From Bradyrhizobium sp. CB1650 (GTDB lineage: Bacteria > Pseudomonadota > Alphaproteobacteria > Rhizobiales > Xanthobacteraceae), in assembly GCF_029761915.1 (NCBI RefSeq), contig NZ_CP121695.1:2633501-2697500 (forward strand): DNA of 64,000 nt. Direction: 5' to 3'. Each line of letters starts with the position of its first letter. The stretch's first letter is position 1. Shown piece by piece: positions 26,671 through 62,660 of this stretch. A program made the position numbers and the translations under genes. The notes under the pieces are model-generated. The model was not told where the DNA came from and made no database searches. It worked only from the letters and a program-made list of their open reading frames with translations.

Positions 26671-27135
26671 GTCTGCCATTCCTCAAGCGGTCTCGCCCTA
26701 GCCATGACAGCGACGTTGCGTGGCGCGTGAAGCGGCGCAATGTTTCCGTCGTGGAGCTGGCGCGGACAATGATTGCGTGATGCAAGAAGACGCGGTGAGT
26801 TCCCCCTTTGGAGAGCCAGTCGAGCCCCGGGCGAGTGCGCCGGCTACCACAATGCAAAGCGTGCAATCGGTCCAGCAGGATTCCCTGTCTCATGTCAGAT
26901 TTCGCCTGATGGCTGATCGAGAACGGAAATGACGAGCTGACGCCGCCACCAGCCTGGCGGTAATCTGGCGCTCCCTCGTCAAAGCAAATGAAGATTTGCG
27001 GTCGCTTTGGCAGGCAACGCGGCAGGCGAGCTTGTATTGACGAGCGGATCAAATCTGAGGATAGGCAGCATCGGGGCGCTGGCTAAAAGCGGATGAGCCG
27101 AGCGCACGCACGGCCGTTCTGCTCCGAGGCCCCGA
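26671..27135. other. Intergenic region, no gene recognised; upstream region of the RTX locus
   Basis: About 465 bp separate the start of the RTX deacetylase gene from the end of the GNAT gene, both on the minus strand. The open frames here yield no recognisable protein. The promoter of the type I secretion cargo genes should lie here. I see no FixK-type box and no clear terminator. Confidence 0.4.
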
Positions 27136-46955: not shown

Positions 46956-47011
46956 CGGCCACGGTCTCGGACCATCGTTCTCGCGTTGCAACAACGTGAG
47001 GGGCCGTTTCG

Positions 47012-47025
47012 TTGATCTTGATCAA
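47012..47025 (+). promoter_or_regulatory. FixK/FNR-type box (TTGATCTTGATCAA)
   Basis: This perfect TTGAT-N4-ATCAA match lies upstream of the DUF3300 gene. Centred at 47018.5, it predicts a transcription start near 47060, about 20 bases before the ATG at 47081. Confidence 0.86.
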
Positions 47026-47080
47026 CAAACACCCGTGCCCCGGCCCGATCTTCCTGGACTGGAAGTGAAGGGAGATAGTG

Positions 47081-48517
47081 ATGTTTCGCTGCGGCAAGAT
47101 CCTGATGGCGCTTGCGCTGGTGATGGCGATCCCGGTCGCCGCAACGGCGCAGACCACCGACAAGCCGGTGACCCCCGCTACGCAGGCGCAGCCTTCAAGT
47201 CCGCCGGCACCGGCCGCGGAGCTTCTTAAGCCCGAACAGCTCGAAGCGCTGGTCGCGCCGATCGCGCTCTATCCCGACGAGCTCCTTGCCAACGTGCTTG
47301 CCGCCTCGACCTATCCGCTCGAGGTGGTGCAGGCCGACCGCTGGCTGAAGGAGCGCAAGACCCTGAAGGGCGATGCGCTGAAGGCGGAGGTCGACAAGCA
47401 GGCCTGGGACGACAGCGTCAAGGCGCTCGCCAGCACCGCCGATGTGCTCGCGATGATGAGCGACAAGCTCGACTGGACCCAGAAGCTCGGCGATGCCTTT
47501 CTCGCACAGCAGCCCGACGTGATGGACGCGATCCAGCGTTTGCGCAACAAGGCCTATGACAACAAGAAGCTGGTCACCACCAAGCAGCAGAAGGTCAGCG
47601 TCCAGACCCAGGAAGGCAAGCAGGTCGTGGTGATCCAGCAGGCCGATCCTGCGGAGATGTATGTGCCGTATTACGATCCGGCGACGGTCTACGGCACTTG
47701 GCCCTATGCTGAGTACCCGCCGTACTATTGGGGCTATCCGTCCTATATCGGCGCCGGTGTGATTGCCGCGGGCTTGGCCTTCGGCACGGCCTGGGCGATC
47801 GGACGCTGGGGCAATTATTGGGGCGGCGGCTGCAATTGGGGCAACCGCAACGTCTATGTGAACCATCGGAACGTCAACATCAACAACGGCTGGCAGCACA
47901 ATCCGGCGCATCGCCAGGGCGTACGCTACAACAACGCCAATGTTGCGCAGCGCTTCGGCAACAACAATCTGAGGGCCGGCGCGTCGGACCGGATGGATTT
48001 CCGCGGCCGGGACGGCCAGCAGGTGCTGCGGCCCAATCAAGGTGCAGGAGATCGGGCGGGTGATCGCGCCGGTGACCGTGCCGGAGACAGGGCGGGCGAT
48101 CGCGCCGGAAATCGCGGTGGCGATCGTCCGGGAGCAGGTGATCGTGGCGGTGACCGTGCAGGGCGGGATCGACCGGGCGGCGATCGTGCCGGTGCCGGTG
48201 ATCGCGCCAAGGGCGGCGGCGAGCGTGCAAAGGCTGCCAACCGCGGAGGTGGCAGTGCTGGCAACCGGGCCGGCGGCGGCAACCGCGGTGGCGCCATGAA
48301 TGTCTCATCCGGCCGTGCGGCGGCCGCGGCATCGGCACGCGGCCGCGCGAGCATGGCAAGCATGCCGCGCGGTGGCGGCGGTGCGCCGAGCTTTGCCGGG
48401 CGCGGCGGAGGTGGCGGCATGGCCATGCGTGGTGGCGGTGGTGGCGGCTTCCGCGGGGAGGCGGAGGGGGCGGCTTCCGCGGAGGAGGCGGCGGCCGGCG
48501 CTCCGATATCGCGCTGA
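47081..48517 (+). CDS. DUF3300 exported protein, C-terminus lost by frameshift
   Basis: The current frame codes for 478 residues. A signal peptide (ILMALALVMAIPVAATAQ) is followed by the DUF3300 core (LEALVAPIALYPDELLANVL, then ASTYPLEVVQADRWLK, and PYYDPATVYGTWPYAEYPP), a Tyr/Trp/Asn-rich linker, GDRA repeats and a Gly-rich tail. At the GGGG run 48455-48458 the frame moves off the expected Gly-Phe-Arg-Gly pattern and ends 20 codons later with an Ala/Glu-rich tail. Adding one base there would restore GFRGGGGGG and join the domain annotated next. The ATG at 47081 has GGGAGA upstream; a GTG one codon earlier is possible. The gene lies behind a FixK box and in front of its usual DUF2950 partner. 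Confidence 0.85.
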   Translation: MFRCGKILMALALVMAIPVAATAQTTDKPVTPATQAQPSSPPAPAAELLKPEQLEALVAPIALYPDELLANVLAASTYPLEVVQADRWLKERKTLKGDALKAEVDKQAWDDSVKALASTADVLAMMSDKLDWTQKLGDAFLAQQPDVMDAIQRLRNKAYDNKKLVTTKQQKVSVQTQEGKQVVVIQQADPAEMYVPYYDPATVYGTWPYAEYPPYYWGYPSYIGAGVIAAGLAFGTAWAIGRWGNYWGGGCNWGNRNVYVNHRNVNINNGWQHNPAHRQGVRYNNANVAQRFGNNNLRAGASDRMDFRGRDGQQVLRPNQGAGDRAGDRAGDRAGDRAGDRAGNRGGDRPGAGDRGGDRAGRDRPGGDRAGAGDRAKGGGERAKAANRGGGSAGNRAGGGNRGGAMNVSSGRAAAAASARGRASMASMPRGGGGAPSFAGRGGGGGMAMRGGGGGGFRGEAEGAASAEEAAAGAPISR

Positions 48518-48765
48518 AGCACGATGTCGTTCTCCTCGGTCATCTCGCCAACGGCCTCGGCTATTACCGCTTCAGCTATATCGGGAGCGACAAGGCCTAT
48601 GTCGGCGTCATCGCGCAGGAGGTCGAGCAGGTGGCGCCGGACGCGGTGACCCGCGGCAGCGATGGATATCTGCGGGTCCATTACGAAAGGCTCGGACTGA
48701 AATTCCGCACCTACCGCGACTGGCTCGCCGGCGGCGCGAGGACTCCTGCGGAGGTGTCGCCATGA
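48459..48765 (+). pseudogene. Frameshifted S74-type C-terminal domain belonging to the DUF3300 gene
   Basis: In the frame shifted by one base the sequence continues without a stop as GGGGGGFRGGGGGRR, then SDIALKHDVVLLGHLANGLG, YYRFSYIGSDKAYVGVIAQE and YLRVHYERLGLKF, ending at TGA 48763-48765. This looks like the endosialidase-chaperone (peptidase S74) type tail that follows a Gly-rich linker in many related proteins. Its stop overlaps the ATG of the DUF2950 gene by 4 bp (ATGA), the spacing of a natural operon, so the tail was or is part of the gene. Whether the missing base is real, a sequencing fault, or bypassed by slippage cannot be told here. Confidence 0.75.
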
Positions 48766-49676
48766 TCGGCCTGAAATCGCTTCGACATGCGGCCCTGGCG
48801 AGCCTCGTGGCGCTGGCGCTGCCCGGGGCGTCACAGGCACAGGAGGCCTACAAGACGCCGGAGGACGCGGCCGCTGCGCTCGCGACCGCAGTCAAGAGCG
48901 GCCCCCGCGACATCCTGAAGGTGCTCGGCAAAGCCGCCGAAGACATCGTCTCCTCCGGAGATGAAGTCGCCGACACGGACGCGCGCCAGCGCTTCACGTC
49001 GATGTATGACGCCAAGCACGGGATCAAGGCGGAAGGCAACAAGACGGCGACGCTGATGCTGGGACCGGACGAATTCCCGTTCCCGATTCCGCTGGTGAAC
49101 AGCAAGAGCGGCTGGGCGTTCGATACCGACGAGGGGCGGAAAGAAGTGCTGTATCGGCGGATCGGCCGCAACGAGCTGGATGCGATCCAGACCGCGCTCG
49201 CTTATGTCGATGCGCAGAACGAATATGCCGTGAAGGATCGCGGCGAAGGCGTGGGCGTCTACGCCCAGCGCATCGTCTCCACGCCCGGCAAGAAGGATGG
49301 CCTGTTCTGGCGCGACGACAACGATCCGAGCCCGCTCGGCGCGCTGGCGGCCGAAGCGTCGAAGGAGGGTTACAAGGCGGGCGATGCGGGGCCGGCGCCG
49401 TATCACGGCTATTACTTCCGTATCCTGAAGGCGCAGGGGTCCGACGCCCCCGGCGGCGCGCTCAACTATGTCGTCAAGGGCAAGATGATCGGCGGCTATG
49501 GACTGATTGCGTGGCCCGCGGAATACGGTAACTCCGGCGTCATGACCTTCCTGGTCAATCATGCCGGCACCGTGTACCAGAAGGATTTGGGCAAGCGGAC
49601 CGAGTTCATCGCAGAGCGTACGACGCTGTTCGATCCGGATCAGACCTGGAAGAAAGTCGATGCCGCAAAGCCATGA
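48762..49676 (+). CDS. DUF2950 family exported protein
   Basis: This 304-residue protein has a signal peptide (LRHAALASLVALALPGASQAQ) and the DUF2950 core: YKTPEDAAAALATAVKSG, then DEFPFPIPLVNSKSGWAFDT, GRNELDAIQTALAYVDAQNEY and AGPAPYHGYYFRILKAQG, ending in GVMTFLVNHAGTVYQKDLG. Its function is unknown. DUF2950 and DUF3300 genes are commonly neighbours, as here, which suggests one periplasmic or cell-surface function. Its ATG overlaps the stop of the frameshifted DUF3300 tail. The frame continues upstream to 48300 as a shadow of the Gly-rich region. Confidence 0.9.
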   Translation: MIGLKSLRHAALASLVALALPGASQAQEAYKTPEDAAAALATAVKSGPRDILKVLGKAAEDIVSSGDEVADTDARQRFTSMYDAKHGIKAEGNKTATLMLGPDEFPFPIPLVNSKSGWAFDTDEGRKEVLYRRIGRNELDAIQTALAYVDAQNEYAVKDRGEGVGVYAQRIVSTPGKKDGLFWRDDNDPSPLGALAAEASKEGYKAGDAGPAPYHGYYFRILKAQGSDAPGGALNYVVKGKMIGGYGLIAWPAEYGNSGVMTFLVNHAGTVYQKDLGKRTEFIAERTTLFDPDQTWKKVDAAKP

Positions 49677-50530: not shown

Positions 50531-51925
50531 ATGACGCAGGTTTCGGATCGATCATTTTTACACGAAGACAACGCCGCGCTCATCTTCTCGCCGCTGAAAT
50601 TTCGGCGCCTCGAAGTCAAGAACCGCCTGTTCCGCTCAAATCTCTCGGGCATGTTTGACGAGTACAACGGCTATGGCGGGCATACGCGGATAAACTGGGA
50701 GGAGAAGTTCGCCAAGGGCGGCGTCGGCTGCATCATCTCGTCCTACACCCCCGTCTCGGTGCGGGGGCGGATCCTGATCCGTTACGCCATGATCGATCAC
50801 GACGACAAGATTCCGTTCTGGCGTGCGGTCGGCAAACGGGTCCACGAGCATGATTGCAAGTTCATCATGCAGCTCAGCCATTCAGGGCGGCAGCAGGACA
50901 TGGGCGGCGTCGAGAACCTCTTCAAGAAGGCGCTGAGTTCGACGAGTCAGAAGGACTTCTTTCACGGGATATTGGCGCAAGCCATGACCGTTGCCGAGAT
51001 CCGCGAGACCGTCGAGCTCTTCGCGCAGGGAGCGCGACGCGCCAGGGAGGCCGGTCTCGACGGGGTCGAACTGCACGGCGCAAACGGCTATCTCATCACC
51101 CAGTTCCTGAGCTCGGGGATCAACGATCGGACCGACGACTATGGCGGGCCCGTGGAGAACAGGGCACGGTTCGTTCTGGAGATCGTACGCGCGATCCGCC
51201 GCGAGGTCGGACCGGATTTTCATCTCCAGATGAAGATCAACGGCGTCGACCACAACGACTGGCTCTATCCCTGGAAAAAGAAGGGCAACACCCTCGAGGA
51301 TACGCTGACGATCTGCAAGATGTTGCTCGACGACGGCAAGGGCGTGGACGCCTTTCACATCTCGAGCGGCTCGACGTTTCCCCATCCGCGCAATCCACCG
51401 GGCGACATCTCGGTGCAGGATCTGGTGCGCTGGTATTGCGGCATGCTGCCCTCGGGCGTCCGCACGCGCTTCAACTACGCGATCTTCAACAGTCCGGTCG
51501 GCGGGCCGCTGTTCCGGTGGCTGTGGCGCCTGCGGCGCGGCAAGGTCATCGAGGGGATCAATGCCGGCTACAGCAGATATCTGCGCGACGAGATCACGAA
51601 GATCGATCCGGGCATCAAGTTCATCTGTACCGGCGGCTTTCAGCACGCCGCCAACATCGCCGGCGTCATCAGGGACGGCTTGTGCGACGGCGTCAGCATC
51701 GGGCGGCCACTGATCGCCAACGAAAACCTGCCGCAGATCCTGCGCACCGCGAATGGTCCGGTCAAACAGAAGGAATGCACCTACTGCAACAAGTGCCTGC
51801 TTAACGATCTCGCCAATCCACTCGGTTGCTACGAGGTGTCCCGCTACGACGGCGATACCTTCGATGAGAAGCGGGACAACATGATCGAGAGCGTCATGTC
51901 GGTCTTCCAGCCGCCGCTCTTCTGA
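50531..51925 (+). CDS. Old Yellow Enzyme-family FMN oxidoreductase with Fe-S-type Cys cluster
   Basis: This 464-residue flavoprotein has the OYE barrel: SPLKFRRLEVKNRLFRSN at the start, IMQLSHSGRQ, GVELHGANGYLITQFLS with the substrate-binding His and Asn, and DDYGGPVENRARFVLEIVRA. Near the C-terminus Cys416, Cys419, Cys422 and Cys433 (CTYCNKC...GC) resemble the 4Fe-4S site of the 2,4-dienoyl-CoA reductase branch, yet the flavodoxin-like and FAD domains of that branch are absent and the protein ends soon after. Electrons must then come from a separate partner. GGGGAAG before the ATG supports the start. It heads the cytochrome-GMC-patatin cluster, so reduction of an enone or dienoyl compound is likely. 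Confidence 0.85.
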   Translation: MTQVSDRSFLHEDNAALIFSPLKFRRLEVKNRLFRSNLSGMFDEYNGYGGHTRINWEEKFAKGGVGCIISSYTPVSVRGRILIRYAMIDHDDKIPFWRAVGKRVHEHDCKFIMQLSHSGRQQDMGGVENLFKKALSSTSQKDFFHGILAQAMTVAEIRETVELFAQGARRAREAGLDGVELHGANGYLITQFLSSGINDRTDDYGGPVENRARFVLEIVRAIRREVGPDFHLQMKINGVDHNDWLYPWKKKGNTLEDTLTICKMLLDDGKGVDAFHISSGSTFPHPRNPPGDISVQDLVRWYCGMLPSGVRTRFNYAIFNSPVGGPLFRWLWRLRRGKVIEGINAGYSRYLRDEITKIDPGIKFICTGGFQHAANIAGVIRDGLCDGVSIGRPLIANENLPQILRTANGPVKQKECTYCNKCLLNDLANPLGCYEVSRYDGDTFDEKRDNMIESVMSVFQPPLF

Positions 51926-51957
51926 CGGGAGCCGACATACGGAGAGGGGGTGTTGTC

Positions 51958-53526
51958 ATGAACTACGATCCGCCTACCCCGGTCGAACGCGTTCTGGCCC
52001 GCTATCGGTGGATTCGCTTCCTCGTCATTCTGCTGTTGCTGCTGCTCGCCGTCTACTACCTGGTCTTCGTGAATCAGTACGTTGTCGCCTACAAGGACGC
52101 CCGGGAGCATTTCAAATACGGGTCGATCGGCAGCGAACCGAACAACGGGATTCCCATCCTGGTGTTCAAGGCGCTCGCGGTCATGTACCGCGACGAACTC
52201 GGGCCGACCGGTTACCGCCGGTTTGGGTTGCTCTACGAAACCGAGCAGTCCGAGCTGCCGGTCGGCATGTCGAAACGGATCGTCTCCGGCGTCGAGCGTG
52301 TCTGGCTCAATTGCGCCGTTTGCCACGTCGGCACCTACAGGATCAATCCGGCGGACAAGCCGACCCTGATTCTCGGCGCGCCCTCGAACAATCTTCGTCT
52401 TTATGATCTGCTGAGATTCTTCCTCAAGGTCGGCGCCGATCCAAAGTTCAATGCCGACGCCCTGATCGCGGCCATCGACAGTCCCGAGGTCGGCGGACAC
52501 CTGAATTTCATTGATCGGGCGATTTACCGGTACATCGTGTTTCCGCGCGTGCAGGCGGCATTCCTGCACCTCTCGCAGCAATTTGCGTTCCTCGGCAGGC
52601 AGGGTGACGGTGGAGGCAACGGGCACCCCGCATACCATCCCTATTACGATTGGGGCCCGGGGCGGGTCGATACCTTCAATCCCTACAAGGCGATCCAGTT
52701 CAACTTCCCGATGAACGCCGCACGCATTTCGCTGACGGAGCTGAACGGCTCATCTGATTTCCCCTCGATCTGGGCGCAGCACCCGCGCGACGGGATGCAT
52801 CTGCACTGGGACGGCAACAACACCTCCGTTGACGAGCGCAATCTGAGTGCCGCGCTCGGCGCCGGTGTTACGCCGGTGAGCGTCGACATTGCCGCGATCA
52901 AGCGGGTTCGCGCCTGGATATGGGAGCTGCCGCCGCCGGCATTTCCGGACCCCAGGTCGATCGACCAGGCGAGGGCTGATCGCGGTCGCGAACTCTTTGC
53001 AGACCATTGCGCGGCGTGCCACGGCATGAGCCGGTCGGGAAAGTACAGCTACGATACCAACCGATTCCCGCGCCTCGGCCAAATCGAGAGCCTGAAGCAG
53101 ATCGGCACGGATTCCGGGCGCTGGCAGTCCTACACGCAGGACTTTGCGGCCGCGCAGAACACGCTCTATGCCGGCTATCCCTGGCGCTTCAGCCATTTCA
53201 GCAAGACCGGCGGCTATGCCAATCAGCCGCTCGACGGCATCTGGGCGCGTTCGCCCTATCTCCATAACGGCTCGGTGCCGACGCTGCGCGATTTGCTCGA
53301 GCCCGCCAATGGCCGCCCGGCGAAATGGTACCGCGGCAGCGATGTCCTCGACGTCGCCAAGGTCGGCTACCGCTACGACGGATATGGGGCGGCGCCGGAG
53401 GACTTGTTTCTCTACGACACCGGCATCCCCGGCAATTCGAACGTCGGACACGAGGGCAGGGTCTACGGCACCGAACTTCCCGCGGCCGATAAGGATGCTC
53501 TAGTGGAATATATGAAGACGCTATGA
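51958..53526 (+). CDS. Membrane-anchored di-haem cytochrome c, CcP/RoxA-like superfamily (1)
   Basis: This 522-residue protein has an N-terminal membrane anchor (about residues 18-38, IRFLVILLLLLLAVYYLVF) and two haem c sites: CAVCH at 119-123 and CAACH at 351-355. Between them lie DWGPGRVDTFNPYKAIQFN and LHWDGNNTSVDERNLSAALG, and near the end SPYLHNGSVPTLRDLLEP. These three are shared with the two other cytochromes of the cluster. The layout resembles the di-haem peroxidase superfamily, which includes rubber oxygenase RoxA and the Pseudomonas fatty-acid dioxygenases. GGAGAGGGGG lies upstream of the ATG, and the next gene overlaps its stop by 4 bp. The protein is expected on the periplasmic side, as electron acceptor or as oxygenase. 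Confidence 0.85.
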   Translation: MNYDPPTPVERVLARYRWIRFLVILLLLLLAVYYLVFVNQYVVAYKDAREHFKYGSIGSEPNNGIPILVFKALAVMYRDELGPTGYRRFGLLYETEQSELPVGMSKRIVSGVERVWLNCAVCHVGTYRINPADKPTLILGAPSNNLRLYDLLRFFLKVGADPKFNADALIAAIDSPEVGGHLNFIDRAIYRYIVFPRVQAAFLHLSQQFAFLGRQGDGGGNGHPAYHPYYDWGPGRVDTFNPYKAIQFNFPMNAARISLTELNGSSDFPSIWAQHPRDGMHLHWDGNNTSVDERNLSAALGAGVTPVSVDIAAIKRVRAWIWELPPPAFPDPRSIDQARADRGRELFADHCAACHGMSRSGKYSYDTNRFPRLGQIESLKQIGTDSGRWQSYTQDFAAAQNTLYAGYPWRFSHFSKTGGYANQPLDGIWARSPYLHNGSVPTLRDLLEPANGRPAKWYRGSDVLDVAKVGYRYDGYGAAPEDLFLYDTGIPGNSNVGHEGRVYGTELPAADKDALVEYMKTL

Positions 53527-53963
53527 CAAAACCCATCGAACATACGGTGAGCGCGTGGATCCTCCGCCACACCATCCTGGTATGGTTCGGCATCCTGCTG
53601 AACGCGTTGTTCGTCATCCCGCTGCTGTTCTGTCCGCGATGGTTCCTCGATCTGTTCAACATCCCGCTCGATCAACTGATCTGGGCGCGCGCGTCGGCCG
53701 GACTGTTGATGATCATCTCGGTGTTCTATGTTCCAGCCGCCGTCGATTTCGTGCGTTATCGCGCCAATGCCTGCATCGCCGTGTTTCCATCGCGGACATT
53801 CGGCGCCACGTTCTTCGTCCTCGCCGTGGTGCTGTTCGGGCAGCCTCCCGGTTTCCTGTCGATTGCGTTCGTCGATGCGCTGATCGGATCGGCCACGCTG
53901 TACTGTCTGATCCGCATCAGGAGGCTTGAGCAGCAGGGCCTTGGGACGGGGCTGATCAAATGA
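53523..53963 (+). CDS. Small membrane protein with four predicted helices
   Basis: This 146-residue protein has four hydrophobic segments: about residues 16-38 (LVWFGILLNALFVIPLLFC), 58-80 (ASAGLLMIISVFYVPAAVDF), 88-108 (VFPSRTFGATFFVLAVVLFG) and 111-132 (PGFLSIAFVDALIGSATLYC). I recognise no named family. It overlaps the cytochrome genes on both sides by 4 bp (ATGA), so the three are translationally coupled and probably act together. It could anchor the cytochromes, deliver a lipophilic substrate or carry quinone-linked electrons, but no haem- or quinone-binding residues stand out. Confidence 0.8.
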   Translation: MTKPIEHTVSAWILRHTILVWFGILLNALFVIPLLFCPRWFLDLFNIPLDQLIWARASAGLLMIISVFYVPAAVDFVRYRANACIAVFPSRTFGATFFVLAVVLFGQPPGFLSIAFVDALIGSATLYCLIRIRRLEQQGLGTGLIK

Positions 53964-55495
53964 TCAGGATCATCTCCATCGTCCTGGCGATCCTGCTCGC
54001 GCTCATCGCGATCGTAGTCCCGCTCGCCTGGTTCGTGCTGTTGCGTCCCGTCGCGCAGCCCGCCACCAACGATCCGCTGCGGGTCTTCGACCACGGCTCC
54101 ATCGGCAACGAGAACGCCCAGGGGATTCCCTATTGGATCTGGCGAGTGCTGCCGACGTTGTTTCCCGACTATCTGCCGGGCAATCAGGATGGCTATGGAT
54201 CGATCGGCGTCTATTGGATCGCCGGCGAGGAGCTGCCCGTCGGATTCTCCAAGAAGACTCTCGGGGTCATTCCGCGGGTCGCGCCGAACTGCGCATTTTG
54301 CCATCAGGGCAGCTATCGTCTGCATGCCGATGATCCCGCCACCTTTGTCCCTGCAGGAGCCGGGACGCGGATCAATGTCCAGGGCTTCCTGCGCTTCCTG
54401 ACCGCGATCGGCCGGGACAACGATCGGTTCACCGCCGACAATGTCATGACTGCGATCACGGCGATCTACGACATGCCGCTCGGCGAGCGCCTGCTGTATC
54501 GCTACTTGCTGATTCCGGCGGTGCGCAAAGGCTTCGCGGAGCAGGCCACGCGATTCGCCTGGATGGATGCGCGGCTCGATTGTTCGCTCGTTGGCGGCAC
54601 GGCCGACGCCCACTCGCGAACGTCGCTGCGCCCGGACTGGGGGCCGGGCAGGATTGATCCGTTCAATCCAGCCAAGTTCTTCAACCTGAAGCTGCCCGAT
54701 GATTGCACGATCGGCAATTCCGACATCATGCCGCTCTGGCATCTCGACGGGCTGACTGATCCCAGCCGCGACTATTCGCTGCACTGGGACGGGCTCAGCA
54801 CCAGCCTGAGAGAGACCGCAATCTCGGGTGCGATCGGTGACGGCATGGACTATCAGGGCTATGCCGGCGCCAAGGCGGCGCTGGACACGATCATGGACTT
54901 CGTCCGATTGCAGAGACCGCCGCCCTCGCCATTCTCCGCCGAGCGCGGTGAAGATGATCCCTATCACGTCGATGCGGTGCAGGTGGCGAAGGGGAAGGCG
55001 GTCTATGCGGATCGCTGCGCGGCCTGTCACGAGCCGGGCGGATCACGCTACCGCACCGTGATTTCGGCGACAGAGCTCGGCACCGACCGTCATCGCATCG
55101 ACATGTGGACCGAAGCCGCGAAGGAGCGCTACTCCAGTTATCGGGAAGGCGGCTACGATTGGGGTTTTCGCGCCTTCCACAAGACCAATGGCTACACCGC
55201 AGGCGAACTGAGCGGACTGTGGCTGCGCGGCCCCTATCTGCACAACGGTTCGGTGCCCACGCTGCGCGATCTCCTGTCGCCGCCGTCCGAGCGGCCCAAG
55301 ACGTTCTACCGCGGCTACGACCTCGTCGACGCCTCGAATGGCGGCTTCGTCAGCCAGGCGGGAACGGTGGCCGCGCGGTTTGGCACGCTCTACGACACGT
55401 CGCTACCCGGAAATGCCAATGGCGGACACGCTTACGGCACCGATCTGCCCGCGACCGAGAAGGATGCGCTTTTAGCTTTCCTGAAGACGTTGTGA
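53960..55495 (+). CDS. Membrane-anchored di-haem cytochrome c, CcP/RoxA-like superfamily (2)
   Basis: This 511-residue protein is a paralogue of the cytochrome at 51958. It has an N-terminal anchor (residues about 3-29, RIISIVLAILLALIAIVVPL) and haem c sites CAFCH at 111-115 and CAACH at 353-357. It shares FDHGSIGNENAQGIPYWIWR, LPVGFSKKTLG, DWGPGRIDPFNPAKFF, LHWDGLSTSLRETAISGAIG and GPYLHNGSVPTLRDLLSP. The strictly kept WGPGR and LHWDG segments suggest distal-haem pocket or substrate-site residues. It starts 4 bp inside the preceding gene. Two similar enzymes in one operon may act on different positions of one substrate, as the Pseudomonas 10S-dioxygenase and diol synthase pair does; this comparison is inference. 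Confidence 0.85.
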   Translation: MIRIISIVLAILLALIAIVVPLAWFVLLRPVAQPATNDPLRVFDHGSIGNENAQGIPYWIWRVLPTLFPDYLPGNQDGYGSIGVYWIAGEELPVGFSKKTLGVIPRVAPNCAFCHQGSYRLHADDPATFVPAGAGTRINVQGFLRFLTAIGRDNDRFTADNVMTAITAIYDMPLGERLLYRYLLIPAVRKGFAEQATRFAWMDARLDCSLVGGTADAHSRTSLRPDWGPGRIDPFNPAKFFNLKLPDDCTIGNSDIMPLWHLDGLTDPSRDYSLHWDGLSTSLRETAISGAIGDGMDYQGYAGAKAALDTIMDFVRLQRPPPSPFSAERGEDDPYHVDAVQVAKGKAVYADRCAACHEPGGSRYRTVISATELGTDRHRIDMWTEAAKERYSSYREGGYDWGFRAFHKTNGYTAGELSGLWLRGPYLHNGSVPTLRDLLSPPSERPKTFYRGYDLVDASNGGFVSQAGTVAARFGTLYDTSLPGNANGGHAYGTDLPATEKDALLAFLKTL

Positions 55496-55519
55496 TCCCG
55501 CAATCGACGAGAGCCAGCC

Positions 55520-58309
55520 ATGAGACGCATTGCGATACGCATTTTCAAATGGGCGGTCGTTTCGCTGGCGGTGCTGTCGGTGTTGCTCGTCGTAGGTGCT
55601 ATCCTCCTGTTCCGGGCGATCGTCGAACCGGAGAGCGAAAAATTCGGCACGCGCCCGGACGAAGCGAAGCAGGCCAACCGGCCACGGCAGTCGCTGCGGG
55701 CCGTGGCGAAGCCTTGCAGCGAGGTGCCGGCGGATTGCAGCTATTTCGCCGAGATGGACAAAGGCCTTCTTGTGAAGCCGGCCGATGGCGCCTCCTATCC
55801 GAAGGAGGTGATGGAGGTCGCCGCCCTGACAAAGCTGCCGCCGGAGCAGGTGCGCGTGAGCGCGAGCCTCGGCCAGACCGCCTGGATGATCTGGACCGGC
55901 GGCAATGATCGGTTCTGGGATTTTGCCGCGAGCAATACGACCGGCGCGTTTGATCTGTTGAAGACGGTCTCGTCCTACAAGGACGCGACAGGGAAAGGCA
56001 TGGCCTACGGACGCCGCAATCGCTGGTCCTGGCTGGGCCTCGTCAACGAACCATGCTTCAGCGAAGCCACGGAGGGCGACGCGTCGCGCTTCGGGCTGTG
56101 GCTCGACCGGCGCGATCCGAATTGCGCGCCTGATCCGTTTGCCGATCCGGACAAATATCCGGGCGTGCGGGTCGGCGCGCGCGACAAGACGGTGCCTCTC
56201 GGCTCCTATTACGGAGAGCCGACCGGTGTCGTCGGCTTGCGGCTGTTCCCAAATCCGGATTTCGACGAGAACGCGCAGAAGGCGTGGAACGCAGAGCGCT
56301 ACTACACCGATCCGTCCTATTACAACAACGCCAAGCTGATCCGCCCGTACCGCGTCGGCATGTCCTGCGCGTTCTGCCACGTCGGTCCGAGTGCGATCAA
56401 TCCGCCGGCCGACCCGGAAAAGCCAAAATGGGAGAACCTCGCCTCGAACCCCGGCGCTCAGTACTATTGGGTCAACCGCGTCTTCTTCTGGAACACCAGG
56501 CCGCGCGACAAGGGCAACGCGCCCGCGCCCAACGAAGGAAATTTCCTCTACCAGCTCTTTCACACCAATCCGCCCGGCAGCCTGGACACGTCGCTGGTCT
56601 CCACGGACTACATGAACAATCCGCGGACGATGAACGCCGTCTACAGCGTCATCCCGCGTCTGAAATTGAGCCTGGAGCGCGGCGCCGAGCACTTGTCGGG
56701 CGGGGAGCTGGATAACAAGCAGCTCCAGGACTATCCGCAGACGGCAGCGCTCCCCCAGTTCTGGGATCCCGCCAGCGGCACGTCGCACACCATGCGGGTG
56801 CTGAAGGACGGCGCCGACGCCGTAGGCACCCTCGGCGCGCTCAACCGCGTCTATCTGAACATCGGCACGTTCAGCGAGGAATGGCTGTTGCATTTCCGGC
56901 CCTTCCTCGGTGGGCGCAAGATCACGCCGATCAGGATCAGCGATGCGGAGAAGCAATCGATTTACTGGCAAGCGACGGAAGATCGAACGGCGGACATGGC
57001 GGTCTTCTTCCTCGTCACCGCGCGTCCCGATCGTCTGGAGGACGCCCCCGGCGGCAAGGCGTTTCTCGAGCCGCTCGATTCCGATAAGGTCAAACGCGGC
57101 AAGGTGGTTTTCGCCGAAAATTGCGCCGCCTGCCACTCGAGCGACGTACCCAGGGCCCCCGCGAATTCGGGCATCGAGGACGGCATCTGTGCGGGCGGCG
57201 GCAACGGGCCGAACTATCGCCAATGCTGGGACCGCTATTGGGCATGGGCGCAGTCCAAGGCATTCAAGGAGGCGATGGTCAAGCGGATCGTGGAGCCCGA
57301 TGAGCTCGGCCGCGACTTCCTCGATGGCAATTACCTGTCGTCCGAGCGACGTGTTCCTGTCGACCTCTTGCAGACCAACGCCTGCACGCCGCTCGCCACC
57401 AATGGTCTGGCCGGCGACATCTGGGACAATTTCACGTCGTCGTCGTATAAGAGCTTGCCGCCGGTCAAGGAGCTCACCGTCCAGCATCCGGTCTCCGGCG
57501 CTTCGATGCCGCTGCGGCCGCTCGGCAATGGGCGTGGCTATCTCCGGCCGCCCTCGCTGATCAGCCTGTGGTCGACGGCCCCGTTCCTGTCGAACAACTC
57601 GGTCGGCCACGAGGATGATGCGACATACCGCTACAGCTATCGCGCCTCGACATCTGAGGGCGGCGGTGGTGACTACACCGGCGCGGCAAGCTGCCCGGCG
57701 GCGAGCGACGACAATCCCTATCTGCCGTGTGTCGCCAACCGGGTGAAGGTGTTCGAACGATCGATCCGGCAGTTGCTGACCCCCTCCACGCGGCGCTTGG
57801 ACAAGCACACGCAGATTCCAGTTCCCGGCTACATCTATCGCACGACTGCGCCGGCCTGCATGCTGGTCGCAAAGGGTTACATGCCGTCGTGGGAGCAGCG
57901 CCTGGCCCGCCCCCTGCATTGGCTGGCGCCGTGGGCAATCGACGAGGAGGGCGGAATTGCGCTCGGACCGTTGCCGAAGGACTTCCCCATCAATGCGCTG
58001 ACCAACACGAAATTGCTACCCGATAACGACGAGCCCGGCGGGATCGGCCATTACTGGCGGCTTGCGAAGGCAATGCCGACGCTGGCCAGCGCCTTCAAGA
58101 AGATGGGCGGCAAATGCTCGCCGGACGAGCTTGCTGATCCACAAACCCAGGCCAACTCCGAAGCCGCCGTGCGCGACACAGGATTGGTCGACGCGCTGGT
58201 CGGGCTGAGCAAATGCCCGGACTACGTCGTCAATCGCGGCCACTATTTCGGGGCCGATCTGCCCGCCGACGATAAGGAAGCGCTCGTGGCCTATCTGAAG
58301 CATTTCTGA
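55520..58309 (+). CDS. Large membrane-anchored di-haem cytochrome c (3)
   Basis: This 929-residue protein has a membrane anchor (about residues 9-32, FKWAVVSLAVLSVLLVVGAI) and haem c sites CAFCH at 283-287 and CAACH at 535-539. Compared with its two neighbours it has an additional N-terminal region of about 170 residues, a larger inter-haem domain (YVNRVFFWNTRPRDKG-like stretches, FTNPPGSL-like turn) and a longer C-terminus. It keeps the theme STAPFLSNNSVGHEDDA near the second half, equivalent to PYLHNGSVP of the others. The start follows the previous gene after 24 bp. It may be the main oxygenase or a peroxidase-type partner; the haem spacing fits the di-haem peroxidase fold. Confidence 0.82.
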   Translation: MRRIAIRIFKWAVVSLAVLSVLLVVGAILLFRAIVEPESEKFGTRPDEAKQANRPRQSLRAVAKPCSEVPADCSYFAEMDKGLLVKPADGASYPKEVMEVAALTKLPPEQVRVSASLGQTAWMIWTGGNDRFWDFAASNTTGAFDLLKTVSSYKDATGKGMAYGRRNRWSWLGLVNEPCFSEATEGDASRFGLWLDRRDPNCAPDPFADPDKYPGVRVGARDKTVPLGSYYGEPTGVVGLRLFPNPDFDENAQKAWNAERYYTDPSYYNNAKLIRPYRVGMSCAFCHVGPSAINPPADPEKPKWENLASNPGAQYYWVNRVFFWNTRPRDKGNAPAPNEGNFLYQLFHTNPPGSLDTSLVSTDYMNNPRTMNAVYSVIPRLKLSLERGAEHLSGGELDNKQLQDYPQTAALPQFWDPASGTSHTMRVLKDGADAVGTLGALNRVYLNIGTFSEEWLLHFRPFLGGRKITPIRISDAEKQSIYWQATEDRTADMAVFFLVTARPDRLEDAPGGKAFLEPLDSDKVKRGKVVFAENCAACHSSDVPRAPANSGIEDGICAGGGNGPNYRQCWDRYWAWAQSKAFKEAMVKRIVEPDELGRDFLDGNYLSSERRVPVDLLQTNACTPLATNGLAGDIWDNFTSSSYKSLPPVKELTVQHPVSGASMPLRPLGNGRGYLRPPSLISLWSTAPFLSNNSVGHEDDATYRYSYRASTSEGGGGDYTGAASCPAASDDNPYLPCVANRVKVFERSIRQLLTPSTRRLDKHTQIPVPGYIYRTTAPACMLVAKGYMPSWEQRLARPLHWLAPWAIDEEGGIALGPLPKDFPINALTNTKLLPDNDEPGGIGHYWRLAKAMPTLASAFKKMGGKCSPDELADPQTQANSEAAVRDTGLVDALVGLSKCPDYVVNRGHYFGADLPADDKEALVAYLKHF

Positions 58310-58320
58310 GGTGTGGCGTG

Positions 58321-60243
58321 ATGGCAGTGGAACGCTATGACTATGTCGTGGTCGGGGCGGGCGCCGGCGGCGGCGTGCTGGCGGCGCGTTTGGCCGAGGC
58401 TGGCCGGCGCGTTCTGGTCCTGGACGCAGGCGATGATCCCGTCAGGCCCGCGGGCGACGTCTCACCGGAAAGCCGAGCCGTCGGGCCGGACTATCAGGTT
58501 CCTGCCTTCCACCCCTACGCGTCCGAAAACCCTTCGCTGAGATGGAATTTCTGGGTGCGCCATTACGTGAATGACGAGCAGCAGCGGAAGGACTGGCGCT
58601 ATTACGAGAACTGCGACGGGGAAGCGGTCGACGGCGTGCTTTATCCCCGCGCCAGCGGTCTCGGCGGCTGCACCGGCCACAATGCGATGATCATCGTCCG
58701 GCCGAACAACGCCGACTGGAATCATATCTGGCAGACCACCGGTGACGCCTCGTGGCGGGCGTCCAACATGCAGCAATATTTTCGCCGCCTCGAGCGCTGC
58801 CGCTACCGCTGGTTCGTCCTCGGATGGCTCGACCGGCTGTTCGGCTGGAATCCGACCGGACACGGCTGGCGCGGCTGGCTGACGACCGAACGCGCATTGC
58901 CGCTGCGGGCTGTTCTCGATTGGCGGCTTCGGCGCACGATGTGGCGCGCCTTGCTCGCCACCGCCAGCCTGCTGCCGGACGCGTCCGAGGGCTGGGGGTG
59001 GCTGATGCGCAGCCTCGGCGATCCCAATGACGAGAGACTTTTGGACGCCGAGGCCTCGACCATCTGCCTGACGCCGATGTCGTCGGCGCGGCATGCGCGC
59101 ACCGGACCTCGCGAATTCCTGCGCGAGGTGCAAAAGCGATTTCCGAACAACCTGACGATACGGCTGAACGCGTTCGTCACCCGCATCGAGATCGACCCCG
59201 TCTCGCGCACTGCATCCGGCGTCTTCTATTGCGAAGGCAAGCGGATCTATCGGGCGGCGGCACAGCCTCGCGGCGCGGCAGGGCAAGAAAGATTCGTCGG
59301 CGCGAGCCGCGAGGTGATCCTGGCCGGCGGCGCCTTCAACACCCCGCAATTGCTGATGCTGTCTGGGATTGGCGATCGTGCGCATCTGGAGGAGTACGAG
59401 ATCGCAGCGGTGAAGCACCTGCCGGGGGTCGGCCAGAATCTCCAGGACCGATACGAGATCGGCGTGGTCAATCGCGTCAAGAAGCCGTGGAAAGCCCTGC
59501 GCGGCGCGACATACACGACCAAGGATCGCCTGTATCGTCAATGGCGTCGGTGGGGGACCGGCGCCTACACCAGCAACGGTCTCCTGTTCTCGGCCAAGTT
59601 CCGGTCGCGGACCGATCAGGACCGTCCCGACCTCTTCTGCTTCTGTCTCCTCGCCGATTTCCGCGGCTACTATCCCAACTATTCCGAGCGCGTCCAGAAG
59701 CTCAACTATTTCACCTGGGCCGTCCTCAAGGCGTACACGCACAACACGGCAGGCACGGTGCGATTGAGATCCGATGATCCGCTGGACCGGCCGCTGATCA
59801 ACTTCAACCATTTTCCTGAAGGCGAGTTGGCTTCCGGCGCTGATCTCGACGCAATGATCACCGGCATCCGCGTCGGGCGCAAAGTGACCGATGCATTGGG
59901 GAAGCTGATCGTCGAAGAAGAGGTTCCCGGCCGCCATGTCTACACCGATGATCAATTGCGACGCCATGTCGAGGATAACGCCTGGGGCCATCACGCCTGC
60001 GGCACCTGCGCCATGAAGCCGGAAGATCGGGGTGGCGTGGTCGACAGCAAATTCCGTGTCCACGGCATCGGAAATCTCCGCATCGTCGATGCATCGGTCT
60101 TTCCGCGCATCCCCGGCTATTTCATCGTGACAGCCGTGTACATGATCGCCGAGAAAGCGGCCGACGTCATTCTGAGTGAATGCGACGAGGCAAGTGAGAT
60201 GAGTGATCGCCCCAGAGGTACAGCACCGGGAGACGCGTCGTGA
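58321..60243 (+). CDS. GMC-family FAD oxidoreductase
   Basis: This 640-residue flavoenzyme of the glucose-methanol-choline family oxidises an alcohol. The N-terminal FAD motif is DYVVVGAGAGGGVLAARLAE, followed by LYPRASGLGGCTGHNAMIIV (GMC signature 1) and REVILAGGAFNTPQLLMLSG (signature 2). The C-terminal catalytic region is NAWGHHACGTCAMKPED with tandem His, ending in IVDASVFPRIPGYFIVTAVY. No signal peptide is seen. GAGGTG precedes the ATG at 58321 (a GTG one codon earlier is possible) and lies at the end of the cytochrome gene. Membrane-bound GMC dehydrogenases usually pass electrons to c-type cytochromes, which are encoded directly upstream. The substrate, perhaps a hydroxy-lipid or sterol-like alcohol, is not readable. 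Confidence 0.92.
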   Translation: MAVERYDYVVVGAGAGGGVLAARLAEAGRRVLVLDAGDDPVRPAGDVSPESRAVGPDYQVPAFHPYASENPSLRWNFWVRHYVNDEQQRKDWRYYENCDGEAVDGVLYPRASGLGGCTGHNAMIIVRPNNADWNHIWQTTGDASWRASNMQQYFRRLERCRYRWFVLGWLDRLFGWNPTGHGWRGWLTTERALPLRAVLDWRLRRTMWRALLATASLLPDASEGWGWLMRSLGDPNDERLLDAEASTICLTPMSSARHARTGPREFLREVQKRFPNNLTIRLNAFVTRIEIDPVSRTASGVFYCEGKRIYRAAAQPRGAAGQERFVGASREVILAGGAFNTPQLLMLSGIGDRAHLEEYEIAAVKHLPGVGQNLQDRYEIGVVNRVKKPWKALRGATYTTKDRLYRQWRRWGTGAYTSNGLLFSAKFRSRTDQDRPDLFCFCLLADFRGYYPNYSERVQKLNYFTWAVLKAYTHNTAGTVRLRSDDPLDRPLINFNHFPEGELASGADLDAMITGIRVGRKVTDALGKLIVEEEVPGRHVYTDDQLRRHVEDNAWGHHACGTCAMKPEDRGGVVDSKFRVHGIGNLRIVDASVFPRIPGYFIVTAVYMIAEKAADVILSECDEASEMSDRPRGTAPGDAS

Positions 60244-62660
60244 CGACGAGCGAGCGTTTGTCGACGGAAGCAGCTCCAGAAAAGACGGTGAAGCCGTGCG
60301 CTCCGCCGCCGGTACCGCGATGGTGGCAATGCGTGCTCAGCGTCGCGCTCGTCCTGTGGGTCCTCCGTGTGCCGACGACAACGACCGTGCTCGGATGGCT
60401 TCTGCTCGGTGTCGCCCCGCAGGCGCAGGACCTGTTCACCGAGTTTACGGATCTGGCTGACACGTGGTTGCGGATGGTTCTGTTCGTGTTCGTCCTGACC
60501 CTGCTCTGGGCCCTGCCGACTCATTATGCCGCCCGCATGCTGATCAACAGCGATTCCAGGCTGCCCGCGAAAGGAGGCCCGTGCCTCGAGCGCGCGGCAA
60601 TCTATCTGCCCCGCCTGCTGGGATTGCTGACATTCGTGGCTGTCGAGGTCTCGATCCTGCGCTCCTACATGAACATTCCGACGCTGGACGAGCAGGACGT
60701 CGTGCAGCGTGTCGAGCATGCGCTGCTCGCATTGGCCGTCCTGGTCGCGCTCGGTGCCAGCGCATATCTGGCCTGGATCTACCTGCGGCCCCGTCATTTC
60801 AGGCCGAGAGGCCTGCTTGGGCGCCTCAATGCCAAGCTCGGATGGTTCTGGCAGGCGGTCTCTCCGGGACGCAAAAGCGGAGCGGCAGACGAGGAAAGCC
60901 GCGACTTCGGCAGGCTCATCCTCGCCGGCGTATTCGTCATCTTTGCATTGATATTTCTGCTGGGCGCCGATCGCGTGGCCGGCTGGTTTCCGCGGTCGAT
61001 GGCGATCCCGTTCATCCTCGGCGGATGGTTGCCGTTTCTGACCTATCTGTCCGGTGTTGGGCGGCAGCGCCGCGCGCCGCTGATCACGGGTCTGGCCGTG
61101 CTGGTTGCCATCCTCGCCGTCATCTTCGGCGACAACCACTCGGTGCGCCGCGTGGCGTCCAAAGACGCCGCACCCGTGAAGATCGAGGAGGCGATCGATC
61201 TTTGGATGACCGAGAACGGCTGCAATCCGAAGACCTCCAACGACAAGACTGTCCCGAGTTGTCCGCGCCCGATCATCGTCGCGGCGGCCGGTGGTGCAAG
61301 CCGCGCAGGCTTCATGATGGCAAGCATGATCGGCTACTTCATCGATACCGACCAAGGGGAATCGTATGGGATCAACACTCTGAGCTCCAGGGATGTCCGC
61401 AACCGCCTGTTCGCGATTTCAGCCGTATCGGGCGGAGCAATGGGAGCGGTGATGGTCACCGCAGCGCTGGGCGCGGCATCGCCGGTCGCCGACAAGCCGC
61501 CTTGCGTGAACGCGGCTGTCGATCAGTGGTGGGGGTTCAAGGTCAACAACTGGCGCGATTGTTTCGAGGCCTTGACCAGCGGGGACTTCCTGACGGCCGG
61601 TTTTCTCGGCTTTGCCTTCAACGATGCGCTGCCCTTCGCCTTCCGCGACCGCGCCGCGGTGCTGGAAGACAGTTGGCGCAATCGCTTCCGCGATGTCGTG
61701 CCGCTGGCAAAGGAAAAGACGGAGTCGGACTGCCGGGGCCTGGATTGTCCTTTTCTCTCGTTGCGGCCGAAGCCCGGACACTGGATTCCGCTGCTGGTTC
61801 TCAACGGCACCTCCGAAGCGATCGGTCGCCGCATCCTGACCACGCCACTGGCGATGAGCTATGTGTCGCCGGGCCAATGCCCGACGGCTGTTGCAGCCAA
61901 CCCCTGTCCGTTGTTCGTGGAGGCTGACAGTTTTCATCAGTTGCTGCGGACGCAGAAGGCATCCCGGCATCAGCGCGATCGATTGGGCATGTCAGGGCAA
62001 TTTTTGTACGGCAAGCCGCAGAACAATGATCTCCGCCTGAGCACGGCGGCACTCAACTCGGCGCGCTTCCCGCTAATCTCCCCGCCGGGCTCGGTCCGCA
62101 ATCAGGATTATCGGCTCGTCGACCGCATCGTGGACGGCGGCTATTTCGAGAATTACGGCACGGTAACCGCCAGGGAGTTGGCCCTGGCCCTGCACGCGAT
62201 CGCTCCGCAACTCAAGCCGCTCGTGATCGTGATCTCGAATGATCCCGCCGATCAGCTCGGACCCACCGACGACGTCGCCAATGATCCGCAGGTTCCGTCA
62301 CGCCCGACGGCAACCGCGGGGGAGGTGCTCAGCGAAGTCACGGCTCCGATCACCACAGTCTTCAACGCCCGGACGGCGCACGGCGTGCAGGCCGTCGACG
62401 CATTGCGTACCTGGTTGCACGCTGCCATTCCGGAGTGCGACAAGCTCGTGATCCAGCTCCGCATCTCGCCGGATGGCGACAAAGCCTTGTCCATGAGCTG
62501 GTGGGAATCGCCGCTGGTACAGCGTCGGATCCATCGTCAGACCGAAGGCGATCCGAATTCCAATTCCGGAAGCGGGAAGGAGAGCAACCAGAACCTTCCG
62601 CGTTTGAAGGCCATCTGGCAGGAAATGCAATCATCAAGCTGCAAGGCAAATCCCGCGTAG
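60240..62660 (+). CDS. Membrane-embedded patatin-like phospholipase
   Basis: This 806-residue protein joins an N-terminal membrane part (about seven hydrophobic segments, residues 30-300, such as CVLSVALVLWVLRV and ILAGVFVIFALIFLLG) to a patatin-like hydrolase part (about 340-790). The oxyanion loop is AAAGGASRAGF (351-357), the nucleophile is Ser397 in SAVSGGAMG, where the usual first Gly of G-x-S-x-G is Ala, and the catalytic Asp632 lies in VDGGYFENYG. The GTG at 60240 overlaps the GMC stop by 4 bp (GTGA). It closes the cluster and probably releases acyl chains from membrane lipids, which would supply a substrate to the oxidising enzymes upstream; that link is inference. Confidence 0.85.
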   Translation: MTTSERLSTEAAPEKTVKPCAPPPVPRWWQCVLSVALVLWVLRVPTTTTVLGWLLLGVAPQAQDLFTEFTDLADTWLRMVLFVFVLTLLWALPTHYAARMLINSDSRLPAKGGPCLERAAIYLPRLLGLLTFVAVEVSILRSYMNIPTLDEQDVVQRVEHALLALAVLVALGASAYLAWIYLRPRHFRPRGLLGRLNAKLGWFWQAVSPGRKSGAADEESRDFGRLILAGVFVIFALIFLLGADRVAGWFPRSMAIPFILGGWLPFLTYLSGVGRQRRAPLITGLAVLVAILAVIFGDNHSVRRVASKDAAPVKIEEAIDLWMTENGCNPKTSNDKTVPSCPRPIIVAAAGGASRAGFMMASMIGYFIDTDQGESYGINTLSSRDVRNRLFAISAVSGGAMGAVMVTAALGAASPVADKPPCVNAAVDQWWGFKVNNWRDCFEALTSGDFLTAGFLGFAFNDALPFAFRDRAAVLEDSWRNRFRDVVPLAKEKTESDCRGLDCPFLSLRPKPGHWIPLLVLNGTSEAIGRRILTTPLAMSYVSPGQCPTAVAANPCPLFVEADSFHQLLRTQKASRHQRDRLGMSGQFLYGKPQNNDLRLSTAALNSARFPLISPPGSVRNQDYRLVDRIVDGGYFENYGTVTARELALALHAIAPQLKPLVIVISNDPADQLGPTDDVANDPQVPSRPTATAGEVLSEVTAPITTVFNARTAHGVQAVDALRTWLHAAIPECDKLVIQLRISPDGDKALSMSWWESPLVQRRIHRQTEGDPNSNSGSGKESNQNLPRLKAIWQEMQSSSCKANPA

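Follow-up and report, generated by a model that had tools for sequence, protein, structure and literature searches.

The stretch considered here is 64,000 nucleotides of the Bradyrhizobium sp. CB1650 genome (NZ_CP121695.1, positions 2,633,501 to 2,697,500; hereafter the window), part of one 9.43-Mb contig, in which seven consecutive genes encode an old yellow enzyme (OYE) flavoprotein, three di-haem cytochromes (cyt1, cyt2 and cyt3), a small membrane protein (mem), a GMC flavoprotein and a patatin-like protein. A reading made from the sequence alone had described them as lying on one strand with 4-bp overlaps or gaps of at most 32 bp, and the open reading frames (ORFs) confirm this layout: all seven are on the + strand, at successive intergenic distances of 32, –4, –4, 24, 8 and –4 bp. 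Protein families were assigned with Pfam and NCBIfam models, with a Pfam listing threshold of E 1e-3.

50531-51925, + strand: OYE, FMN oxidoreductase of the old yellow enzyme family, 464 amino acids (aa)
51958-53526, + strand: cyt1, membrane-anchored di-haem protein, 522 aa, predicted RoxA fold
53523-53963, + strand: mem, 146 aa, four hydrophobic segments, no family
53960-55495, + strand: cyt2, membrane-anchored di-haem protein, 511 aa, cyt1 paralogue
55520-58309, + strand: cyt3, divergent di-haem protein, 929 aa, N-terminal helix
58318-60243, + strand: GMC flavoprotein, 641 aa
60240-62660, + strand: patatin-like protein, 806 aa, six N-terminal hydrophobic segments followed by a divergent patatin domain

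The arrangement is not due to chance, because the order OYE, cyt1, mem, cyt2, cyt3 recurs elsewhere. GTDB species genomes hold 303 relatives of cyt3, of which the best 80 were kept as numbered loci (L numbers); counts over these loci describe the part of the family nearest the window, and the core genes were located in them by tblastn with the window proteins. The five genes stand in the same order and on the same strand in 27 of the 80 loci, joined by GMC in 26 (in L039 the contig ends), and a GMC match is found in 75, directly after cyt3 on the same strand in 64 and on the other strand in eight. The gene set that the sequence-only reading had treated as one system is thus found together in other genomes. 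Loci L009 and L030 start inside cyt1, where the presence of OYE is not judgeable, and in L080, from Acidobacteria, a group of OYE, cyt1, mem, cyt2, a patatin and a Tle1-like gene is divergent from cyt3-GMC.

The cluster is nevertheless rare, scattered and accessory, since few genomes of the genus, order and class carry OYE or cyt3 (each count includes the window's own genome). In the genus (195 genomes examined), four genomes have OYE (E<=1e-120), the same four that hold a cyt3 of 86-100% identity, and three more have a cyt3 of 57-58% identity without OYE. At E<=1e-30, cyt3 is found in three of 150 genomes of the order, one match being weak; in the class (385 genomes) OYE (E<=1e-100) occurs in three, two of which have cyt3 (E<=1e-60). 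Among named species, Bradyrhizobium neotropicale and B. centrolobii carry the closest relatives of the cluster. Its copies in Rhizobium and Sinorhizobium are plasmid-borne, with 21 plasmid records matched, 18 of them at 60-80% identity; cyt3 relatives are also present in Acidobacteria, Nitrosomonas and Paracoccus, and relatives of the core genes in Methylocystis.

Gene products and their motifs

All three cytochromes have a hydrophobic segment at the N terminus and a pair of CxxCH motifs. The RoxA-like model PF21419 is matched by cyt1 (E 1.1e-16) and cyt2 (E 1e-13), which align with each other at 36% identity over 467 profile columns; by sequence they are paralogues and di-haem proteins of the RoxA type. 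Both contain the features of FadCcp, namely two CxxCH, PY[FL]HNGSVP and a C-terminal His, and the HNGSV signature is of the MauG/RoxA type according to passages of PMC4496055.

52312-52326, + strand: cyt1 haem motif 1, CAVCH119-123
52804-52815, + strand: cyt1 HWDG283-286, in which W284 aligns with RoxA W302, the inter-haem Trp
53008-53022, + strand: cyt1 haem motif 2, CAACH351-355
53263-53277, + strand: cyt1 HNGSV, signature of MauG/RoxA type (passages of PMC4496055)
53446-53469, + strand: cyt1 C-terminal GH497-498, position of the third axial His
54290-54304, + strand: cyt2 haem motif 1, CAFCH
55016-55030, + strand: cyt2 haem motif 2, CAACH
56366-56380, + strand: cyt3 haem motif 1, CAFCH283-287
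57122-57136, + strand: cyt3 haem motif 2, CAACH535-539
58238-58252, + strand: cyt3 C-terminal GHYFG, in the sole stretch that profile-aligns with cyt1/cyt2

The best fold match of the predicted cyt1 structure is the rubber oxygenase RoxA (4b2n), which supports, as the sequence-only reading had supposed, a RoxA-type fold for cyt1 rather than that of a plain electron carrier. That reading had likened all three cytochromes to RoxA-type proteins, and for cyt3 structure comparison gave no clear match. RoxA Trp302 corresponds to cyt1 W284 in a 12.6-bit alignment that shares a WDG motif, and this Trp is kept in at least 90% of alignment A3; in the same weak alignment the position of RoxA Phe317 is Ala302 in cyt1. 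The curated RoxA and RoxB models are both failed by cyt1 (47.3 bits, cut-off 1000, and 51.2 bits, cut-off 900). The model NF040606 for di-heme cytochrome c peroxidase (cut-off 150) is passed by cyt1 with 192.9 bits, not reached by cyt2 (131 bits) and matched weakly by cyt3 (34.1 bits). The same genome also encodes, at a separate site (L106, 9833-12661, – strand), a RoxA-like di-haem protein of 942 aa that stands without the cluster partners.

Apart from its weak match to NF040606, cyt3 is recognised by generic cytochrome c models, and the HNGSV signature is absent from it. Its family counts at least 6189 homologues, and the two CxxCH are kept in all 79 loci listed (L072 lies outside the listing); the N-termini of many more distant relatives were read by eye as lipoprotein signals. 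On sequence grounds cyt3 belongs to a divergent, yet unnamed di-haem family that forms a constant pair with GMC.

51776-51829, + strand: OYE Cys416-419-422-433, C-terminal CxxCxxCx10C, probable iron-sulphur site
59983-59997, + strand: GMC WGHHA, in which H559 aligns with the GMC active-site His
60112-60123, + strand: GMC PGYF, in which F602 stands at the position of Asn in 8b7s
61422-61436, + strand: AVSGG, patatin nucleophile motif (GVSGG in the B. neotropicale orthologue)

The sole family matched by OYE is PF00724 (E 1.2e-51). Its Cys cluster is present in 26 of 26 aligned sequences (L013, L016 and L080 lie outside the alignment), and no FAD/NAD domain follows the probable iron-sulphur (Fe-S) site in the 464 aa. 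Among solved structures its best relative is an NADPH dehydrogenase (3.7e-34), with the 12-oxophytodienoate reductase OPR1 at 9.3e-27. In GMC both domains score over cut-off (PF05199, E 8e-30; PF00732, E 1.6e-21). At the position of F602 and of the Asn of 8b7s, which we take to be that of the second catalytic residue of GMC enzymes, Asn or His is expected; Phe is found in 72 of the 72 alignment rows with a residue there. The mem protein, detected in 30 loci, has no match in Pfam or NCBIfam. The membrane anchors had been taken to place the chemistry at the periplasmic face; this stands for the cytochromes and does not extend to OYE and GMC, in which no hydrophobic segment was found, nor a common leader in the GMC alignment (read directly, with no signal predictor). 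The pathway would thus not be wholly periplasmic, because these two enzymes show no export signal.

Naming the seventh gene a patatin is only partly borne out. The window protein gave no Pfam match at 1e-3 and no NCBIfam match; the name rests on its GGASR, AVSGG and DGG motifs, the GxSxG/DGG dyad reading AVSGG plus DGG here and GVSGG in relatives, and on the B. neotropicale orthologue (82% identical), whose PF01734 match (9.3e-6, 26.4 bits) is just under the cut-off of 27.7. A membrane patatin follows GMC in L008, L013, L014, L016, L017, L020-L023, L027 and L028, and also in G173. The patatins after GMC form two groups, and tblastn with the window protein picks up only that of L008 among the 80 loci; the gene is annotated as patatin-like in R. 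johnstonii 3841, and PF01734 is matched in L014 and L028. In L110 (G708) a lipoprotein-like patatin lies divergent, upstream of OYE, in L031 the gene overlapping the stop of GMC encodes a Tle1-like lipase, and in the B. centrolobii loci L010 and L102 no lipase was seen in these neighbourhood searches. Since the patatin groups differ, a Tle1-like lipase occurs in L031 and none appears in B. centrolobii, the lipase is a frequent but exchangeable partner; at the level of sequence, the patatin recurs, swaps families and is not obligatory.

Neighbouring genes in relatives and in the window

Gene families adjoining the core in the 80 loci were defined by an all-against-all ORF comparison and phmmer at E<=1e-5. 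Patatins are present in 20 loci and Tle1-like lipases in six. The former count consists of 19 phmmer matches, after removal of five artefacts, plus the Pfam-confirmed L035; the rejected matches (L052, L065, L076, L083 and L084) are ORFs antisense to gene c9, that of L084 also to GMC, and patatin motif matches in L026, L029 and L069 were left out. Pfam was applied to 12 of the 20 patatin loci: nine were over cut-off (L014, L028, L035, L042, L064, L068, L071, L074 and L080), L008 and L049 were just below it, and the L073 patatin, though related to that of L071, had no match at 1e-3.

Haem enzymes form the other recurrent group of neighbours. A catalase-fold family, nearest to coral allene oxide synthase-lipoxygenase (1u5u, E 4.6e-6), occurs in 22 loci, a DyP-type peroxidase family (TIGR01413, E 2.3e-21, 76.4 bits, under the cut-off of 100.5) in 19 and animal-haem-peroxidase proteins in five. 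Two further families without a name, one of about 433 aa in 20 loci and one of 156 aa in 25, gave no Pfam or NCBIfam match for the one member of each scanned. A lipase or a haem peroxidase is present in 46 of the 80 loci, and both in two (L035 and L048). A recurrent cassette of the DyP-type, catalase-fold, 433-aa and 156-aa genes adjoins cyt3-GMC in Proteobacteria and Acidobacteria; within the genus, L105 combines all four with cyt3-GMC, and in L103 and L104 a gene related to the L042 patatin (33-38% identity by sequence comparison) occurs together with cyt3, GMC (short matches only in L103) and the 156-aa gene.

Cassette loci: L036, L041, L048, L050, L052, L053, L055, L063, L065, L069, L070, L079, L082-L085, L105
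L109, 6212-13297, – strand: OYE, RoxA-like cytochrome, small protein, patatin and alpha-dioxygenase; no cyt3 or GMC

Locus L109 (G503), located through OYE and the most informative of all, contains contiguous genes for OYE (52%), cyt1 (46%), a 144-aa protein that occupies the position of mem without sequence match to it, and a patatin (PF01734, 1.5e-22). A haem protein encoded 0.4-0.9 kb upstream on the same strand has plant fatty-acid alpha-dioxygenases as its closest solved relatives (near full length, E 3.9e-101), and L040, with the six-gene block from OYE to GMC, encodes an alpha-dioxygenase-like protein (2.2e-59) together with a catalase-fold protein. The substrates of alpha-dioxygenases are free fatty acids. 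By sequence, L109 appears to link OYE-cyt1 with the oxygenation of fatty acids more closely than the window does by itself, as an association in one locus. The lipid context proposed from the window sequence thus gains from the relatives, in which the core genes repeatedly have lipases and haem enzymes of fatty-acid oxygenation as neighbours.

In the window itself, a scan for promoters found 0 sites, with 2.7 expected, and one for terminators found nine, with 9.2 expected. The cluster has a GC content of 60-65%, and the 2-kb bin with the lowest value in the window (0.601) falls at its 5′ end; the rest is unremarkable. Histidine kinase, DUF3300 and DUF2950 genes lie upstream (45054-49676, + strand); among the loci compared by tblastn they adjoin the cluster only in B. 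neotropicale (L008), and are therefore placed outside it. Two giant genes on the – strand, one of 3825 aa (9685-21162) with 23 bacterial Ig-like repeat stretches, DUF4347 and RTX calcium-binding repeats and one of 1798 aa (21283-26679) with RTX repeats, look like large secreted RTX proteins.

Function and rival explanations

We propose, with about even odds (a probability of roughly 0.5), that the cluster is an accessory module of scattered occurrence that oxygenates fatty-acyl chains and processes hydroperoxides at the cytoplasmic membrane. The proposal starts from the gene set, its conservation, the predicted cyt1 fold and the haem and cofactor motifs; from these we infer a substrate, a product, an order of steps and a direction, which may be oxylipin synthesis or clearance. 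The patatin would free acyl chains from membrane lipid; cyt1, and perhaps cyt2 too, would add O2 to the acyl chain on the periplasmic side, by analogy to PA2077 on oleate; cyt2 and cyt3 may convert the resulting hydroperoxide or carry its electrons; and in the cytosol GMC would act on the hydroxy or carbonyl product and the Fe-S OYE would reduce a conjugated enone. Against this weighs the fact that neither lipase nor haem peroxidase is found in 34 of the 80 loci.

The same enzymes might instead serve clearance, the peroxidase-like cytochromes and an OYE with 12-oxophytodienoate reductase-like chemistry removing lipid hydroperoxides and reactive enals or enones from the cell's own lipids or from plants. 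Such reductases are among the solved relatives of OYE, though not the nearest (OPR1 9.3e-27 vs 3.7e-34), peroxidase families recur beside cyt3-GMC, and the plasmids carrying the cluster belong to legume-associated Rhizobium and Sinorhizobium. However, enzymes such as a patatin and a fatty-acid alpha-dioxygenase suggest production rather than scavenging, and the cyt3 relatives of Acidobacteria, Nitrosomonas and Paracoccus make a plant link unneeded; we regard clearance as rather doubtful. FAD-dependent glucose and gluconate dehydrogenases offer a model for electron transfer from a GMC enzyme to a cytochrome, and the constancy of the cyt3-GMC pair (75 loci with GMC, 64 directly after cyt3) would suit a role in energy metabolism, in which the electrons that a GMC dehydrogenase takes from an alcohol would pass to cyt3 and on to the respiratory chain. 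This is improbable, as the seven genes include no recognised small exported subunit, GMC shows no leader, its second catalytic residue is Phe in 72 of 72 rows, and OYE, the lipases and the dioxygenases would be left unexplained.

Protease-like neighbours, found by sequence search in eight of the 80 loci (L040, L049, L057, L072, L011, L015, L032 and L048), raise the idea of a conflict or stress-response system with lipases and proteases as effectors. Four are Pfam-confirmed, the subtilases of L049, L057 and L072 and a caspase domain in L040; the L011 neighbour matched by a subtilase query has no Pfam match, nor has that of L048, 'papain-like' as read by eye. Tle1-like lipases near some loci and a WD40 protein in L109, whose start was read by eye as TIR-like, point the same way, but with so few protease-like neighbours and none of the seven proteins matching PADLOC at 1e-3 such a system is very unlikely. 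Modification of hopanoids, sterol-like lipids or polyisoprenoids is suggested by the cleavage of polyisoprene by RoxA (passages of PMC4496055) and by a squalene-hopene cyclase in the window's genome. The cyclase family PF13249 occurs in only three of 17 carriers, all Bradyrhizobium (for the 16 other genomes completeness is unstated), and the hopanoid substrate that the sequence-only reading had entertained is unlikely because the other 14 show no match; we consider this alternative, in which exogenous polyisoprenoid is left as a candidate substrate, highly improbable.

The module for fatty-acyl oxygenation may have a wider meaning, which we put forward tentatively: that bacteria have a counterpart to the pairing of phospholipase and oxygenase that underlies animal eicosanoids and plant oxylipins. 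It would be a membrane module in which a constant cyt3-GMC or OYE-cyt1 core is surrounded by exchangeable lipases and by exchangeable haem oxygenases, whether RoxA-type di-haem proteins, alpha-dioxygenases or enzymes of the catalase-fold and DyP types. Its products would be a new class of oxidised lipids, made by rhizobia as well as by other bacteria of soil and sea; cyt3 would represent a new family of di-haem enzymes, and GMC would be mechanistically altered. To our knowledge, few bacterial systems are known for enzymatic oxylipin synthesis. A cluster of several genes that is conserved in rhizobia and Paracoccus would supply a testable enzyme set and a nameless 929-aa di-haem family, and might provide a lipid signal or a defence in the contact between bacteria and plants.

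Comparison with known systems

In the Fe-S old yellow enzymes FadH, BaiCD and trimethylamine dehydrogenase, the barrel is followed by a Cys cluster. The cluster OYE shares this arrangement but, unlike FadH-type enzymes, ends at 464 aa without the FAD/NAD half. The cluster GMC has both domains and the active-site His in common with the chloramphenicol-inactivating oxidoreductase 8b7s and with fatty-acid photodecarboxylase, and differs from this group by the Phe at the second catalytic position. Relatives of the plant fatty-acid alpha-dioxygenase (4kvj, 4hhr) lie close to OYE-cyt1 in L109, there at full length, and close to the six-gene block of L040; the window itself lacks one. RoxA (4b2n) resembles cyt1 in fold, haem motifs, the Trp302 equivalent and the C-terminal His; it differs as a single, rubber-acting enzyme, and cyt1 scores 47.3 against the NCBIfam RoxA cut-off of 1000.

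No description of this gene set was found in the open-access literature, a search outside which most subscription journals fall. The oleate-diol synthase operon PA2077-PA2078 of P. aeruginosa (FadCcp; PMC4496055), as portrayed in the passages drawn on here, encodes tandem periplasmic di-haem paralogues of the RoxA type, like cyt1 and cyt2, with the same HNGSV and C-terminal His, and PA2077, compared by its description, keeps the RoxA Trp as cyt1 does. The two proteins have 634 and 624 aa, whereas cyt1 and cyt2 are shorter and anchored, and those passages mention no OYE, GMC, patatin or cyt3. PA2077-PA2078 is thus the nearest system found, and the new parts of the cluster described here are cyt3 and the altered GMC.

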